A stretch of DNA of 64,000 nt from Colwellia sp. PAMC 21821 (GTDB lineage Bacteria; Pseudomonadota; Gammaproteobacteria; Enterobacterales; Alteromonadaceae): the NCBI RefSeq assembly GCF_002077175.1, contig NZ_CP014943.1, positions 3,162,001 through 3,226,000 on the forward strand, given 5' to 3'. The translations under genes and the position numbers were made by a program. How positions within the stretch are numbered: position 1 is the first letter of the stretch; each line of letters begins with the position of its first letter. This document shows positions 57,762 through 63,863 of the stretch, piece by piece. The notes under the pieces are model-generated. The model was not told the origin of the DNA. It saw only the letters and a list, made by a program, of their open reading frames with translations, and ran no database searches.

Positions 57762-59108
57762 ATGAAAAACGTAACTTTATTTTTACTATTCTTTGTTTCA
57801 ATGTTTTCAAAACAAGCGTTGGCAACTTTAGAAATTGTTATCACCGAAGGTGTTGATAGCGCACGTCCAATTGCAGTAGTACCTTTTAAATGGGCAGGCA
57901 CTGGTGTAATGCCAGAGCGTTTATCTCAAGTGATCAGTGATGACTTACTTCGTAGTGGTAAATTTAGCCCAATTAAACAATCACGTTATCCCCAAACGCC
58001 TTACGACGCTAGCGAGATCGATTACACCGCATGGGCGAGTGAGGGCGTTGAAGCCGTTGTTATTGGTGAAGTAAGTGAAACGTCGATAGGGCGTTATCAA
58101 ATCAAATATCAGCTCGTTGACGTTATTCGTGGCCAAGTGACCGGTGGTGAAACACAAATGTTGAGTAATGGTGAGTTAGTTCGCAGCTCTGATCATATTC
58201 TTGATGAAAGTACTGTTGAAGTAGGGGCTGACCAATTTCGCCGTTACGCTCATCGTATCAGTGATGCTGTTTATGAAAAGCTTACGGGTACACGCGGCGC
58301 ATTTTTAACAAAAATAGCTTATGTTATTGTTCGTGACCAAGGTGAATATCCTTATCAATTAGTTGTTGCTGACTATGATGGATTTAACGAACATGTTTTA
58401 TTAAGCTCAAGAGAGCCCTTAATGTCACCCGCGTGGCATCCAAGTGGCAATCAGTTAGCTTATGTAACATTTGAAAATAGACAAGCTCAAATTCATGTTA
58501 TTGATATTTACTCTGGGCAACGTAACTTAATAAGCTCATTTGATGGCATAAATAGTGCGCCTAAATGGTCACCAAATGGTCAGCAACTAGCTATGGTGCT
58601 ATCGAAAGATGGTAACCCTGAGCTTTATGTGATGAATGTCGCAACAAAAAAATTACGACGAGTCACTCGTCATCGCGCAATTGATACTGAACCAAGTTGG
58701 ACGCCAGATGGTAATTCATTGATATTTAGTTCAGAACGAGGTGGAAAAGCACAGTTATATCGCGTAAGTTTAGTCGATGGTAAAGTCAGAAGGTTAACTT
58801 TTGATGGTGAAATGAACCTTGGTGGATCATTAACACCTGATGGCCGTCAATTAGTGATGGTAAATCGCACACGCGGGAAGTATCATCTAGCAAAGCAAGA
58901 TTTTGATTCAGGGATTTTCCAAGTGTTAACTTCAACACGCTTAGATGAATCCCCAAGCATTTCACCTAACGGTGGAATGATTATTTATAGTACTTTACAT
59001 AATAATCGTCAGGTACTAAGTTTAGTTTCCGTAGATGGAAGGTTTAAGGCAAGATTGCCAGCACTCAATGGCGAAGTGAAGTCACCTTCATGGTCACCAT
59101 TTTTATAA
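57762..59108 (+). CDS. tolB: Tol-Pal periplasmic beta-propeller TolB
   Basis: A 448-residue protein with a signal peptide ([21 protein letters not shown]). The N-terminal domain (about residues 22-160) binds TolA. The rest is a six-bladed beta-propeller with the repeat pattern [48 protein letters not shown], which binds Pal. It follows tolA by 32 bp. Confidence 0.97.
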
Positions 59109-59151
59109 TAATTATTAGTAACTTACTTTATATATAATAAGGACACATAAA

Positions 59152-59706
59152 ATGCGCTTTAATAAAACAGTAAAGGCCTTAGCGGTTGTTTTACCAATCA
59201 TGGCTCTATCAGCCTGTAGTTCGTCTGATTCAGCTAGTGAAGACGCTAGTGCGATGCAAAAAAACCAAGCTGCTATGGCAGAGCAACAAGCTCGTGATGA
59301 TGCAGAACGTGTAAAAGTAGAAGCCATGCAACGTGCTGACGCTATTGAAGCTAAAAAACGTCAAGAAATTGAAAAGCTACGTTCAGAACATATCGTTTAT
59401 TTTGATTTTGATAAATCATCAGTAAGTGGTGACTTTGCCGCTATTCTTGATGCACATGCGAAGTTTCTTAACGAAAACTCAAATGTGAATGTGTTAATTG
59501 AAGGTCATGCCGATGAACGTGGTACACCTGAATATAACATTGCACTTGGCGAGCGTCGTGCAAAAGCTATCGAAACGTTTTTAGAAAATATGGGCGTTTC
59601 AGCTTCACAACTTAGTACTGTGAGCTACGGTGAAGAAAAACCAATGATTAAAGATCGTAGCGAAGGTGCGTTTGCTAAAAACCGTCGTGCAGTTTTGGTC
59701 TACTAA
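59152..59706 (+). CDS. pal: peptidoglycan-associated lipoprotein Pal
   Basis: A 184-residue outer-membrane lipoprotein. The lipobox LSAC gives Cys22. A coiled, Ala/Glu-rich linker is followed by an OmpA-like domain (YFDFDKSSVSGDF, EGHADERGTPEYNIALGERRA) with the peptidoglycan-binding Asp and Arg residues. An AAGGACAC site precedes the ATG. The tol-pal operon continues 12 bp downstream with cpoB. Confidence 0.97.
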   Translation: MRFNKTVKALAVVLPIMALSACSSSDSASEDASAMQKNQAAMAEQQARDDAERVKVEAMQRADAIEAKKRQEIEKLRSEHIVYFDFDKSSVSGDFAAILDAHAKFLNENSNVNVLIEGHADERGTPEYNIALGERRAKAIETFLENMGVSASQLSTVSYGEEKPMIKDRSEGAFAKNRRAVLVY

Positions 59707-59718
59707 TCAGGTAATTTA

Positions 59719-60507
59719 ATGAAACCCAATAGTATTCTATTCGGGATGTCGTTTGCTGTTGCTGCCAATTTGGCAGTAGCAGCAGAACCTGCTCCTGTTA
59801 TTGAAGTTACCGCAGGCACGCTTTCAAATGGTGCCCAATCAAGCTTAAGTGAACAGCTCGTTAGTCTTGAACGTAAACTTGATGCTCGTAACCGTGCACA
59901 AGTAAACGTGCAACGACAACTTGACGAGTTGCAAAATGAAGTCAATGAACTTCGTGGCATCACTGAATTACACACTTATCAATTGAGCCAAGTGCTTGAC
60001 CGTCAACGCGAGTTGTATCAAGAGCTTGATCGCAGAGTATCAGAAGCATTAAAACCAGCGAATCAAACATCCGCGACAATTATTGCTCCAACAGATAGCG
60101 CAGGTAAGGTAAATTACAGTAATAACTTAACTGAAAATGAAGCCTATGATCGTGCTGTGAATATGGTGCTTAAAGATAAGCGTTACGATCAAGCTATTCC
60201 TGAGTTTGAGGCATTCAATAAAAGATACCCTAATTCTAGTTATTCAGCTAATGCCCATTATTGGTTAGGACAGCTATTATTTAATAAAGGTGAATTAACG
60301 AAAGCACGTCAAGAATTTGATGTCGTGGTGAGTGATTACCCTGATTCTAGCAAACGTAGTGACGCAATGTTGAAGCTTGCTATGGTTGAACAAAAAGAAA
60401 ATAACCAAAATAAAGCTATTGCGGTATATAAGAAACTCATCGCTGAGTATCCTAATTCAAGTGCTGCTAAATTAGCGCAACCAAGATTAAATAGTATAAA
60501 ACCATAA
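59719..60507 (+). CDS. cpoB: cell division coordinator CpoB (YbgF)
   Basis: A 262-residue periplasmic protein. A signal peptide (ending AVAAEP) is followed by a coiled coil (about residues 38-105) that forms trimers in the family and three C-terminal TPR units (YDRAVNMVLKDKRYDQAI, YWLGQLLFNKGELTKAR, AIAVYKKLIAEYPNSS). In E. coli it links Tol with penicillin-binding protein activity. It is the last gene of the operon. Confidence 0.95.
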   Translation: MKPNSILFGMSFAVAANLAVAAEPAPVIEVTAGTLSNGAQSSLSEQLVSLERKLDARNRAQVNVQRQLDELQNEVNELRGITELHTYQLSQVLDRQRELYQELDRRVSEALKPANQTSATIIAPTDSAGKVNYSNNLTENEAYDRAVNMVLKDKRYDQAIPEFEAFNKRYPNSSYSANAHYWLGQLLFNKGELTKARQEFDVVVSDYPDSSKRSDAMLKLAMVEQKENNQNKAIAVYKKLIAEYPNSSAAKLAQPRLNSIKP

Positions 60508-60540
60508 TTACTGCTGATAACTTGTACGCATTGACGACTT

Positions 60541-60554
60541 TTTGTTCGAACAAA
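60541..60554. promoter_or_regulatory. 14-bp perfect palindrome
   Basis: TTTGTTCGAACAAA is a perfect palindrome between cpoB and the tRNA promoter. It may be an operator, or the core of a weak terminator; no regulator can be named. Confidence 0.35.
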
Positions 60555-60585
60555 CAATAAAGTTTAAAAAAGCGGAAGATTGTTG

Positions 60586-60613
60586 TTGCACTTAAAAATA
60601 TTATGAGTATTAT
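60586..60613 (+). promoter_or_regulatory. promoter of the tRNA-Lys operon
   Basis: TTGCAC and TATTAT are 16 bp apart and are followed by a GC-rich discriminator (GCCCCGCG), the usual sign of stringent control of stable RNA genes. Confidence 0.6.
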
Positions 60614-60654
60614 ATGCCCCGCGTTGACCGAGTAGGGCAACGCAAAACAAATAC

Positions 60655-60730
60655 CGGTCGTTAGCTCAGTTGGTAGAGCAGTTGGCTTTTAACCAATTTG
60701 TCGAAGGTTCAAATCCTTCACGACCGACCA
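60655..60730 (+). tRNA. tRNA-Lys (anticodon TTT), copy 1
   Basis: A 76-base tRNA with encoded CCA end. The acceptor arms CGGTCGT and ACGACCG pair fully, the anticodon loop is CTTTTAA (TTT) and the T-loop is GTTCAAATC. All three copies in this cluster are identical. Confidence 0.98.
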
Positions 60731-60774
60731 CTTTTACCAAAGAGTGTTTGGGTATTTGTTTTTGAAGTATATAT

Positions 60775-60850
60775 CGGTCGTTAGCTCAGTTGGTAGAGCA
60801 GTTGGCTTTTAACCAATTTGTCGAAGGTTCAAATCCTTCACGACCGACCA
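60775..60850 (+). tRNA. tRNA-Lys (anticodon TTT), copy 2
   Basis: Identical in sequence to copy 1. A 44-bp spacer separates them, so they are probably one transcript cut by RNases. Confidence 0.98.
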
Positions 60851-60935
60851 CTTCTTCTTAGCCTTTTATGTTAAGAGTCAGTGGCATTGAAATAGCGTAT
60901 CGTTATTTCATTCTAAAAAATTAAAAGTAGTTTAT

Positions 60936-61011
60936 CGGTCGTTAGCTCAGTTGGTAGAGCAGTTGGCTTTTAACCAATTTGTCGAAGGTTCAAATCCTTC
61001 ACGACCGACCA
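60936..61011 (+). tRNA. tRNA-Lys (anticodon TTT), copy 3
   Basis: Identical in sequence to the first two copies. The cluster has no clear hairpin terminator after it; the sequence downstream is T-rich. Confidence 0.98.
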
Positions 61012-61242
61012 CTTTTAAATTTTCATTAAACTCCACATAGATACTTCTTAATATTATTTAATTAACTTAATAAGTTATTCTCTTCTTTTATTTATATTTT
61101 ATATCCCAAATACTCATTCACACACATTCTTATACCAAATGTAATAAGTTATTGACCAATTTTAAGCTTGGATAAATTGTTCAAGAATACATGTTTATTG
61201 TTCCAGACTAAACATAAGTACCTGCATATATGGACCCACTCC

Positions 61243-61524
61243 GTTTGCAAGACATTTAATCGTTATGTAAGAGAAAATCATTGCTCTCATATATCCGGCC
61301 TGTTTATGAAGGATTTTTACCTTCTGGCCCCGATGGTTTTTTGCGCTCACACTCCTCATCATCCCTCCGGCTTTTTTATTAGCCAATGCAGGTACCAGGT
61401 TTTGTGCAAGCCAGTCTGACTATCTTACCATCCGATTAATTTATCTTTTGCAACTGAAGTAAAAGGGTTTTACTGTTATCTCATCACTGAAACCAATCTA
61501 ACTTGCTTCAGTTTTGAGCTTTAT
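61243..61524 (-). ncRNA. candidate seekRNA/bridge-RNA region of the insertion sequence
   Basis: This 282-bp region lies between the transposase stop and the end of the element. Read on the minus strand it contains GTACCTGCAT (61395-61386), identical to the plus strand of the flank at 61218-61227. It also contains ATGGTA (61431-61426), the complement of the first six bases after the other IS end (62627-62632). These would pair with opposite strands of the target, as guides of IS110-type RNAs do. RNA boundaries are not determined. Confidence 0.5.
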
Positions 61525-62541
61525 TTATATAGCCGGGCGATAACTTTCCCCCTTCGCCATTATTACCCAAGCCATTCTTGCTATTTTATTCGCCACAGCA
61601 ACGCATGCTTTGTTGTGTCCTCGTCGGGATTTTAACGCTTGTGCCCACAAACTAAATCGGTCAGTTTTGTTTTCACTGTGCCTTAATACTGCCCGGGCCC
61701 CGTGGATGTATAGTGTTCTTAAATAACTATTACCGCGTTTACTTATACCGAGTAAGGTGGCCTTTCCACCCGTTGAATGCTGCCCAGGAACAAGCCCAAG
61801 CCATGCCGAAAAATGTCGACCATTTACAAAGTCTTTTCCATCTCCTGCAGCTGCATAAGTAGCGCTAGCTGTGATTGCTCCAATACCTAATATTTCATCT
61901 AAGCGAACACATATTTCATTTTCTTTATTCATCGTGTTTAAGCGAACTTCACACGCTTTAAACTTCACTTCTGTGACTTGAAATTCAAGCCATAACTCAT
62001 TAAATATCTCCCGACTTAAATACGTTAACTCATTTGTCGCATCCTCTAAAATATCCGGCAGTTCATTGTGAATTGCAGAAATACCTTTATTGATGACAAT
62101 GCCATATTCTCCTAACAAGCCTCGTATCTGACTTGCTAATGCTTTACGTTCTTTCTTTATGCGTTCACGTTGTCGATGGAAGTTTTGAATATCTTGTTGT
62201 TCTATCGATTTAATTGGCACAAACCTCATGGTCGGGCGTTGCGCTGCCTCTGCAATACCTTCGGCATCGTTATAATCATTTTTATTGCCTTTAACGAAGG
62301 GTTTTACATATTGAGGCGCAATAAGTTTTACTTGGTGCCCCAATTCAATAAATTTTCTAGCCCAGTAGTTCGCACTGCCACAAGCTTCCATTACAATTAG
62401 GCAAGGCTCTAATGTTGCCATGAAACTCAACACTTGTTTTCTTCTTAATTGTTTCTTTTTTACAAATCGCCCATTTTTATTCACAGCGAACATGTGAAAA
62501 ATTGATTTTGCAATGTCTAAACCGATTGTAGTAATCTTCAT
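61525..62541 (-). CDS. IS110/IS1111-family DEDD transposase
   Basis: A 338-residue recombinase. The RuvC-like domain has Asp9 (IGLDIAKS), Glu52 (IVMEACGS) and the pair Asp89/Asp92 (NKNDYNDAEG), the DEDD set. A coiled linker is followed by the C-terminal transposase_20 domain (LDEILGIGAITAS, GRHFSAWLGLVPGQHSTGGK, LGISKRGNSYLR) that carries the second catalytic site. The pattern with TGGK and SKRGNSYLR is that of the IS1111 subgroup. The ORF is full length with an ATG near the right end of the element. Confidence 0.95.
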   Translation of the reverse strand: MKITTIGLDIAKSIFHMFAVNKNGRFVKKKQLRRKQVLSFMATLEPCLIVMEACGSANYWARKFIELGHQVKLIAPQYVKPFVKGNKNDYNDAEGIAEAAQRPTMRFVPIKSIEQQDIQNFHRQRERIKKERKALASQIRGLLGEYGIVINKGISAIHNELPDILEDATNELTYLSREIFNELWLEFQVTEVKFKACEVRLNTMNKENEICVRLDEILGIGAITASATYAAAGDGKDFVNGRHFSAWLGLVPGQHSTGGKATLLGISKRGNSYLRTLYIHGARAVLRHSENKTDRFSLWAQALKSRRGHNKACVAVANKIARMAWVIMAKGESYRPAI

Positions 62542-62816
62542 GTTGATCCACTCCGCTTTTATAAATGATTGTTATCACTTTCATTTTGGCCCTAAAGAGG
62601 CCGGAAATAAAGTTGGAGTGGGTCCATACCATTATCCCTGCAGGCAAGGCGTTTGATTGAGTAATAGCTGGCTATTGGGATTGAAAACAACGCAGTTATT
62701 GACGATTTAAACCGCCTTAAAATGATCGATTATTTATTTCAATTGGTATTAGTACACTTTTATTCTTCTATACCTTATAATTCTCACGTTTTTTAAGGCA
62801 CTCATTGAGAATATAT

Positions 62817-63863
62817 ATGACCCAAGCAAATTTAGCCGTTGATTTTGACTTTCAATTTCCGAAAAAGCCTGCACCATTAAGTGATGTAGAACGTGAAGAA
62901 TATAAAGCACGCATCAAAATTCTATTGAAAGAAAAAAACGCTGTGCTTGTTGCACATTATTATACTGATCCTGAAATTCAAGCTCTGGCCGAAGAAACGG
63001 GTGGTTGTGTTGCCGACTCACTAGAAATGGCGAGATTTGGTAATAACCATCCAGCTGACACGCTAATTGTAGCGGGTGTTCGCTTCATGGGAGAGACAGC
63101 AAAAGTGCTTACTCCCGAAAAAACAGTGGTTATGCCAACATTAGAAGCGACATGCTCACTAGATTTAGGCTGTCCAATCGAAGAGTTTAATGCTTTTTGT
63201 GATCAACACCCAGACAGAACCGTCGTTGTATATGCAAATACGTCTACCGCTGTCAAAGCGCGCGCTGATTGGATAGTAACCTCATCTTGTGCTTTAGAAA
63301 TTGTCGAGCATCTTGATAGCTTGGGTGAAAAAATTATCTGGGGTCCTGACCGTCACTTAGGCGCATACATTGAAAAGCAAACTGGTGCTGACATGTTAAT
63401 GTGGCAAGGTGCTTGTATTGTTCATGATGAGTTTAAAACTAAAGCGCTAATGGATATGAAGACACTTCATCCTGACGCGGCTGTGCTTGTCCATCCTGAA
63501 TCACCGGCGGAAATAATCGACCTTGCTGACTCTGTAGGTTCAACAAGCCAATTAATTAAAGCGGCTCAAGCACTACCAAACAAAAAATTCATTGTGGCTA
63601 CAGATCGCGGTATTTTTTATAAAATGCAGCAACTATGTCCCGACAAAGAGTTCTTTGAAGCACCAACGGCAGGTGAGGGCGCAACTTGTAAAAGTTGTGC
63701 ACACTGTCCTTGGATGGCAATGAATGGTTTAAAAGAAATTGAAGAAGCATTATTAAACCCACAAGGTCGTGAAGTTTTTGTTGATATGAAATTGCGCACA
63801 GGCGCACTTAAGTCACTTGATCGCATGCTTAACTTTAATTTGGAAATGAACCAAAATAAGTAA
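62817..63863 (+). CDS. nadA: quinolinate synthase NadA
   Basis: A 348-residue enzyme that condenses iminoaspartate and dihydroxyacetone phosphate to quinolinate in NAD synthesis. Visible motifs are [27 protein letters not shown], the iron-sulfur cysteines in [22 protein letters not shown] and [10 protein letters not shown], and FVATDRGI-like [14 protein letters not shown] 62817 has GAGA at good spacing; a TTG four codons earlier is rejected. nadA next to tol-pal and lysine tRNAs is the E. coli order. Confidence 0.96.

Follow-up and report, generated by a model that had tools for sequence, protein, structure and literature searches.

Guide RNAs of insertion sequences (IS) were published in 2024 as the seekRNA of IS1111 elements such as ISEc11, ISKpn4 and ISPa11 (Siddiquee et al., 2024, PMC11187229) and as the bridge RNA of IS621 from the IS110 group (Durrant et al., 2024, PMC11208160). 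As set out in the former, these IS1111 elements possess sub-terminal inverted repeats of 11-13 bp, extensions of 7 bp and 3 bp, a transposase of about 340 amino acids (aa), a non-coding region downstream of the transposase gene (tnp) and, in their RNA, a guide complementary to the top strand located 5' of a bottom-strand guide, with matches overlapping at the insertion point; abutted ends create a promoter, active in the few cases tested, and natural redirection is described between ISEc11 and ISXne4. The IS621 RNA, according to the latter, has a target and a donor loop with two guides each, overlapping at the junction. The element considered here lies in a window (the whole stretch of DNA analysed) of 64,000 nucleotides (nt) from Colwellia sp. 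PAMC 21821 (contig NZ_CP014943.1, positions 3,162,001 to 3,226,000), resembles the seekRNA elements in these structural features and IS621 in its loops, and is a new member of the seekRNA/bridge RNA family whose guide principle is thus already in print. To judge from sequence comparison, this IS1111 element very probably specifies, from its 3' non-coding end, a guide RNA of two loops, a target loop and a probable donor loop.

Comparison of filled sites with uninterrupted targets shows that the element extends over 61227-62634 (1408 bp, minus strand), between the plus-strand flanks GTACCTGCA (61218-61226) and TCCCTGCAGG (62635-62644); empty sites read GTACCTGCA/TCCCTGCAGG, the slash marking here and below the insertion point or the junction of abutted ends. 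In the direction of tnp the element comprises a 7-bp extension TAATGGT (62628-62634, minus strand), the inverted repeat ATGGACCCACTCC (62615-62627), tnp itself (61525-62541, minus strand), a non-coding end of 298 nt, and the second inverted repeat (61230-61242) with its outward 3-bp extension ATA (61227-61229). The IS1111 hallmarks are thus present: inverted repeats of about 11-13 bp at both ends, a transposase within 330-350 aa (338 aa, with DEDD (PF01548) and PF02371 domains), extensions without target duplication as judged against empty sites, a long downstream non-coding region, and a single target point and orientation in all 25 full copies. The transposase matches the NCBIfam model NF033542, 'IS110 family RNA-guided transposase', with an E-value of 5.5e-103, and its nearest solved protein chains are the ISCro4 and IS621 transposases. 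The 7-bp extension is missing from empty sites and present in relatives, in which its terminal ATGGT recurs at unrelated sites.

The predicted target loop (61345-61411, minus strand) is closed by a helix of 61404-61411 with 61345-61352 and contains, in RNA order, target guide 1 (RNA GUACCUGCAU, 61386-61395), a hairpin (61381-61384/61369-61372) and target guide 2 (RNA AGGGAUG, 61360-61366), both guides on the minus strand. Guide 1 pairs with the flank at 61218-61226 and guide 2 matches the other side of the empty site, so that both strands are addressed with the top-strand complement first, as in seekRNAs; in the direction of tnp the target reads CCTGCAGGGA/TGCAGGTAC, and the two matches overlap at ATG. 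The observation from which the analysis departed, a 10-base match between GTACCTGCAT at 61218-61227 and its reverse complement at 61386-61395, is present in the sequence, and the chance of about 1-2% given for it by the first-pass annotation agrees with our own estimate of 1.2%; of the ten bases assigned to the flank, 61218-61226 indeed are flank, while the last T is shared with the end of the element.

On the single 4.88-Mb contig of this genome the element has 26 long matches; both ends are present in 25, and the remaining one is truncated. All 25 full copies occupy one and the same target point, which in 24 cases lies within a repeat of 210 or 258 bp resembling a miniature inverted-repeat transposable element (MITE), and uninterrupted targets GTACCTGCATCCCTGCAGG are found as 11 exact copies and in 10 further places with 1-3 mismatches. 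Target guide 2 is kept in 25/25 full copies and guide 1 is exact in 24, a single C-to-T change in the remaining copy (L024) still allowing G-U pairing. Copies with the same internal 10 bases beside unrelated flanks, which would have spoken against a guide, do not occur among the 25, each of which has TGCAGGTAC next to that end. As 24 of these sites are copies of one repeat, this is a weak check, and covariation in relatives is the strong one.

Ends could be assigned for 35 of 51 relative loci (L063-L113). A first test of the target guides used 19 aligned elements of 36, the window included, from which the window, as source of the hypothesis, and L093, L097 and L105, with cut flanks, were removed, leaving 15. 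Thirty-three of the 35 relatives formed a reference set, without L095 (flanks and match lengths the same as in L094) and the poorly aligned L076, and a held-out set of 33 remained from 54 new loci after removal of 20 for failed end-finding or contig edges and of L141 as a repeat of L092; L128 and L149, partly misaligned, were still counted. One-base offsets were permitted equally for own and foreign guide-target pairs, and each test comprised 20,000 permutations. Guide 1 fitted the element's own target in a mean of 6.93 of 10 positions in the 15 relatives (foreign targets, 3.84) and 6.73 in the held-out set (foreign, 3.54), guide 2 in 6.07 (3.66) and 5.79 (2.62) of 7 positions respectively, and 0/20,000 permutations reached these values in any of the four comparisons. 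By this comparative evidence 61386-61395 is a real guide for the insertion site.

The annotation had placed the second of its two guides for opposite strands at 61426-61431, in view of TACCAT at 62627-62632, taken as the first bases of the right flank. The concept of two guides holds, with the second located at 61360-61366 instead. The base runs do exist, TACCAT recurring once in the 298-nt non-coding end, where a given 6-mer is expected on either strand with a chance of 13%; with the boundaries fixed as above, however, TACCAT is element sequence, mostly part of the 7-bp extension, and none of the 11 exact empty sites contains it. Comparison with the flanks of relatives, suggested at the same time, separates the two runs, 61386-61395 covarying with the target and 61426-61431 staying AUGG-like in 18 aligned relatives whatever their target, and a target guide at the latter place, scarcely credible on these data, was rejected.

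The host repeat itself could be held responsible for the uniform flanks, if a single IS insertion into a MITE had been spread by subsequent MITE movement. The repeat, ending TACCAA...TTGGTA, shows the short size, terminal inverted repeats and target-site duplication of a MITE; the interrupted copy of the window, of the 210-bp subtype, spans 61132-62749 (plus strand) with TTA at 61130-61132 and 62749-62751. Identical TTA or TAA flanks border 36 of the 42 copies with ends found (20/24 filled, 16/18 empty), and 24 of the 25 full IS copies reside in MITEs with their own TWA duplications, 20 of these intact, as a passenger would; rare MITE variants common to L013 and L019 and to L020 and L023 point in the same direction. 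On the other hand, the IS is found in the 210-bp and 258-bp subtypes and in a TAT-type variant (L001, L010, L019), each of which has empty counterparts as well (L043, L049; the latter the one empty 210-bp copy seen), and no fixed difference was found between filled and empty repeats, which together with the common subtypes favours several separate insertions. One copy (L025), at the identical target point GCCTGCATGGA/TGCAGGTAC, even lies outside the MITE-like repeat, a single base of its site not matching target guide 2; this copy and the two subtypes by themselves imply no fewer than three insertion contexts. Carriage by the repeat, which also leaves the guide-target covariation in relatives unexplained, is therefore very unlikely as the general explanation and was rejected as the main cause on the comparison of filled and empty repeats; some copies may nevertheless have spread in this way.

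Downstream of the target loop, the predicted donor loop (61283-61344, minus strand) has the same layout of guide, hairpin and guide, with a 2-bp closing helix (61343-61344/61283-61284) and a hairpin of 61326-61329 with 61297-61300 and 61321-61324 with 61308-61311. Probable donor guide 1 (RNA ACCAU, 61333-61337, minus strand) is complementary to the ATGGT of the 7-bp extension, and probable donor guide 2 (RNA AUAUAUG, 61288-61294, minus strand) has the same sense as the abutted ends ATATA/T(A); each covaries with the element's own extension or ends. Relatives combine extensions GAATGAT, TAATGAA and ACAATGT with donor guides AUCAU, UUCAU and ACAUU, respectively, and TGATGAG with CUCAU in 4/6 elements, while ends GTA/GA, ACA/AA and AGG/CA go with AUGUAGA, AUACAAG and AUAGGCA. 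In the 33 held-out elements, own pairs score 4.39 against 3.64 of 5 for donor guide 1 and 6.21 against 5.02 of 7 for donor guide 2 (0/20,000 permutations each), and with one element per distinct end type the permutation counts are 6/20,000 (n=9) and 0/20,000 (n=10). This purely comparative evidence finds the second loop complementary to both donor strands, which characterizes a bridge RNA, and this loop probably lets the RNA recognize the donor, as the bridge RNA of IS621 does. The rejected run 61426-61431 (RNA AUGGUA) is identical to the element's own end and appears complementary to donor guide ACCAU, and a corresponding GAUG/CAUC complementarity is visible by eye in relatives. That the run is a helix strand masking the donor guide, and would resemble the element's end for this reason, may be the case; it was considered and is not claimed.

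Both loops are contained in a consensus structure derived from 33 sequences, in which a helix closes the target loop and the 2-bp helix the donor loop, each pair of guides being accompanied by its hairpin. On a second, separately built alignment with 32 of these sequences, 90.3% of the cells are paired, compared with 73.3% in shuffles and 32-44% in slid controls, the helices show compensatory changes, with both sides altered in 17 of the 22 pairs, and all 500 shuffles fall below the consensus on every measure. An Rfam search gave no matches other than the tRNA close by and, well short of its threshold, a plastid family.

The ends of the element carry further regularities. The tnp-side end begins with the same base as the target at the other junction in 57 of 67 elements (47% expected; 0/20,000 permutations), a -10-like hexamer with 5 or 6 of 6 matches spans the abutted ends in 59/67, and the best -35-like hexamer at a spacing of 16-18 bp matches in a mean of 3.96 of 6 positions versus 2.45 in controls. 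The abutted ends of the window's element, which in a circle would read CCATATA/TAATGGTATGG in the direction of tnp, present TTGCAA, 16 bp and TATAAT. We infer a mechanism in which the element would form a circle whose junction-created promoter drives expression of tnp and of the RNA, and the RNA, once produced and bound by the transposase, would act through pairing of its first loop with both strands of the landing site GTACCTGCA/TCCCTGCAGG in the dispersed MITE-like repeat and, probably, of its second loop with both strands of the element's own ends abutted in the circular form; the transposase would then join circle and target at the base common to both.

Several points weigh against a guide RNA of two loops. 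The permutations ignore phylogeny, and both donor guides are short and partly constrained by common ancestry. Donor guide 1 is exact in only 18/33 held-out elements (at most one mismatch in 31/33) and donor guide 2 in 10/33 (again at most one mismatch in 31/33), with a recurring misfit of UCCAU to extensions ending in GGG (L114, L117, L118, L120, L132, L142). Target guide 1 fits in 5 or fewer of 10 positions in 7/33 held-out and 14/33 reference relatives, some of these poor fits stemming from cut flanks or misalignment; guide 2 fits in 6 or 7 of 7 positions in 26/33 and 20/33, respectively. The window RNA folded alone is no better than its own shuffles (z -0.03), and the RNAalifold covariation term on the 33 sequences, +3.99, is not a bonus. 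Moreover, in Siddiquee et al. (2024, PMC11187229) an 82-nt seekRNA was sufficient for ISEc11, wherefore, by analogy, the donor loop may be dispensable. Specificity would then be provided by the first loop alone, as in the published seekRNA, and the second would be structural, its likeness to the ends deriving from ancestry or from overlap with the junction promoter, whose -10-like box indeed constrains the extension for another reason. A promoter constrains the DNA end, however, without explaining why the RNA follows, and the RNA does so in several end types, even when each type is represented by a single element. We regard such a restriction to the target loop as possible though unlikely, and retain the guide RNA with target and probable donor loop as the best explanation.

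Beyond this element, it is likely that IS1111-group RNAs in general are two-loop bridge RNAs whose second loop recognizes both strands of the abutted ends, the 7-bp extension being at once the partner of a donor guide and part of the -10 box of the circle-junction promoter. If so, a joint constraint would govern the evolution of donor recognition, junction and promoter. The question of donor recognition by IS1111 RNAs is one on which the 33 held-out elements, with a second loop that follows their own ends, bear, and the matching pairs given above make it directly testable.

This single chromosome, on which 25 sites are filled, many are empty and excision may have left footprints, offers a good natural record of the element. 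In the truncated copy (L026, at 2339259-2340099) the tnp-distal part including the guide region is lost. Two MITE copies at different places (L027 and L028, near 3059642 and 815720) have the sequence GTACCATTATCCCTGCAGG, which a deletion of the IS between two TACC repeats (61219-61222 and 62627-62630) would produce if ATTA of the IS end remained; these possibly are excision footprints, and MITE movement after one event is equally possible. A third copy (L029, near 508434) has two additional bases, GTACCTGCATATCCCTGCAGG, either a footprint between TAT repeats or simple slippage. A search of 196 genomes, its own included, found relatives of the MITE-like repeat, for the most part fragmentary, in 51. 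Related IS1111 elements with another guide (RNA UAAUACCAA; L064, L066, L103 and L168-L170) are located at AAT/TGGTATTA (AAT/GGTATTA in L169), a site resembling the end of the window's MITE, and since an open reading frame next to L168 (L171:464-1642) encodes an IS4-family transposase, this group may target the end of another transposon. Several close relatives with 68-79% transposase identity (L092-L100, L107, L110) reside in hairpin-like sequences around CATGGA/TG with differing stems, as if this clade targeted a family of short palindromes. The surroundings in the window (57762-63863, searched) are ordinary, with tolB, pal and ybgF/cpoB genes and nadA downstream; a tRNA-Lys (TTT) gene occupies 60936-61011, some 120 bp away from the MITE.

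Landing inside a MITE-like repeat recalls IS4321 and IS5075, which reportedly are IS1111 elements that land in another mobile element. The seekRNA elements of that family differ from the present one, which is known from its sequence, in that the target here is a point inside such a repeat and, as far as the accessible text of PMC11187229 goes, in that the second loop here follows the element's ends. A literature search with most subscription papers and all preprints outside its scope recognised no other study of donor pairing in IS1111 elements; potential donor-binding bases in IS1111 RNAs were seen by inspection in one 2024 paper, and six IS110/IS1111 RNAs were inspected by hand by Durrant et al. 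(2024, PMC11208160). Unlike in IS621, it is comparison that points to donor pairing in the present element, and while the IS621 RNA, in the same text, resides in the left end of an element with hardly any inverted repeats, the RNA proposed here lies downstream of tnp and keeps the guide order of IS1111.
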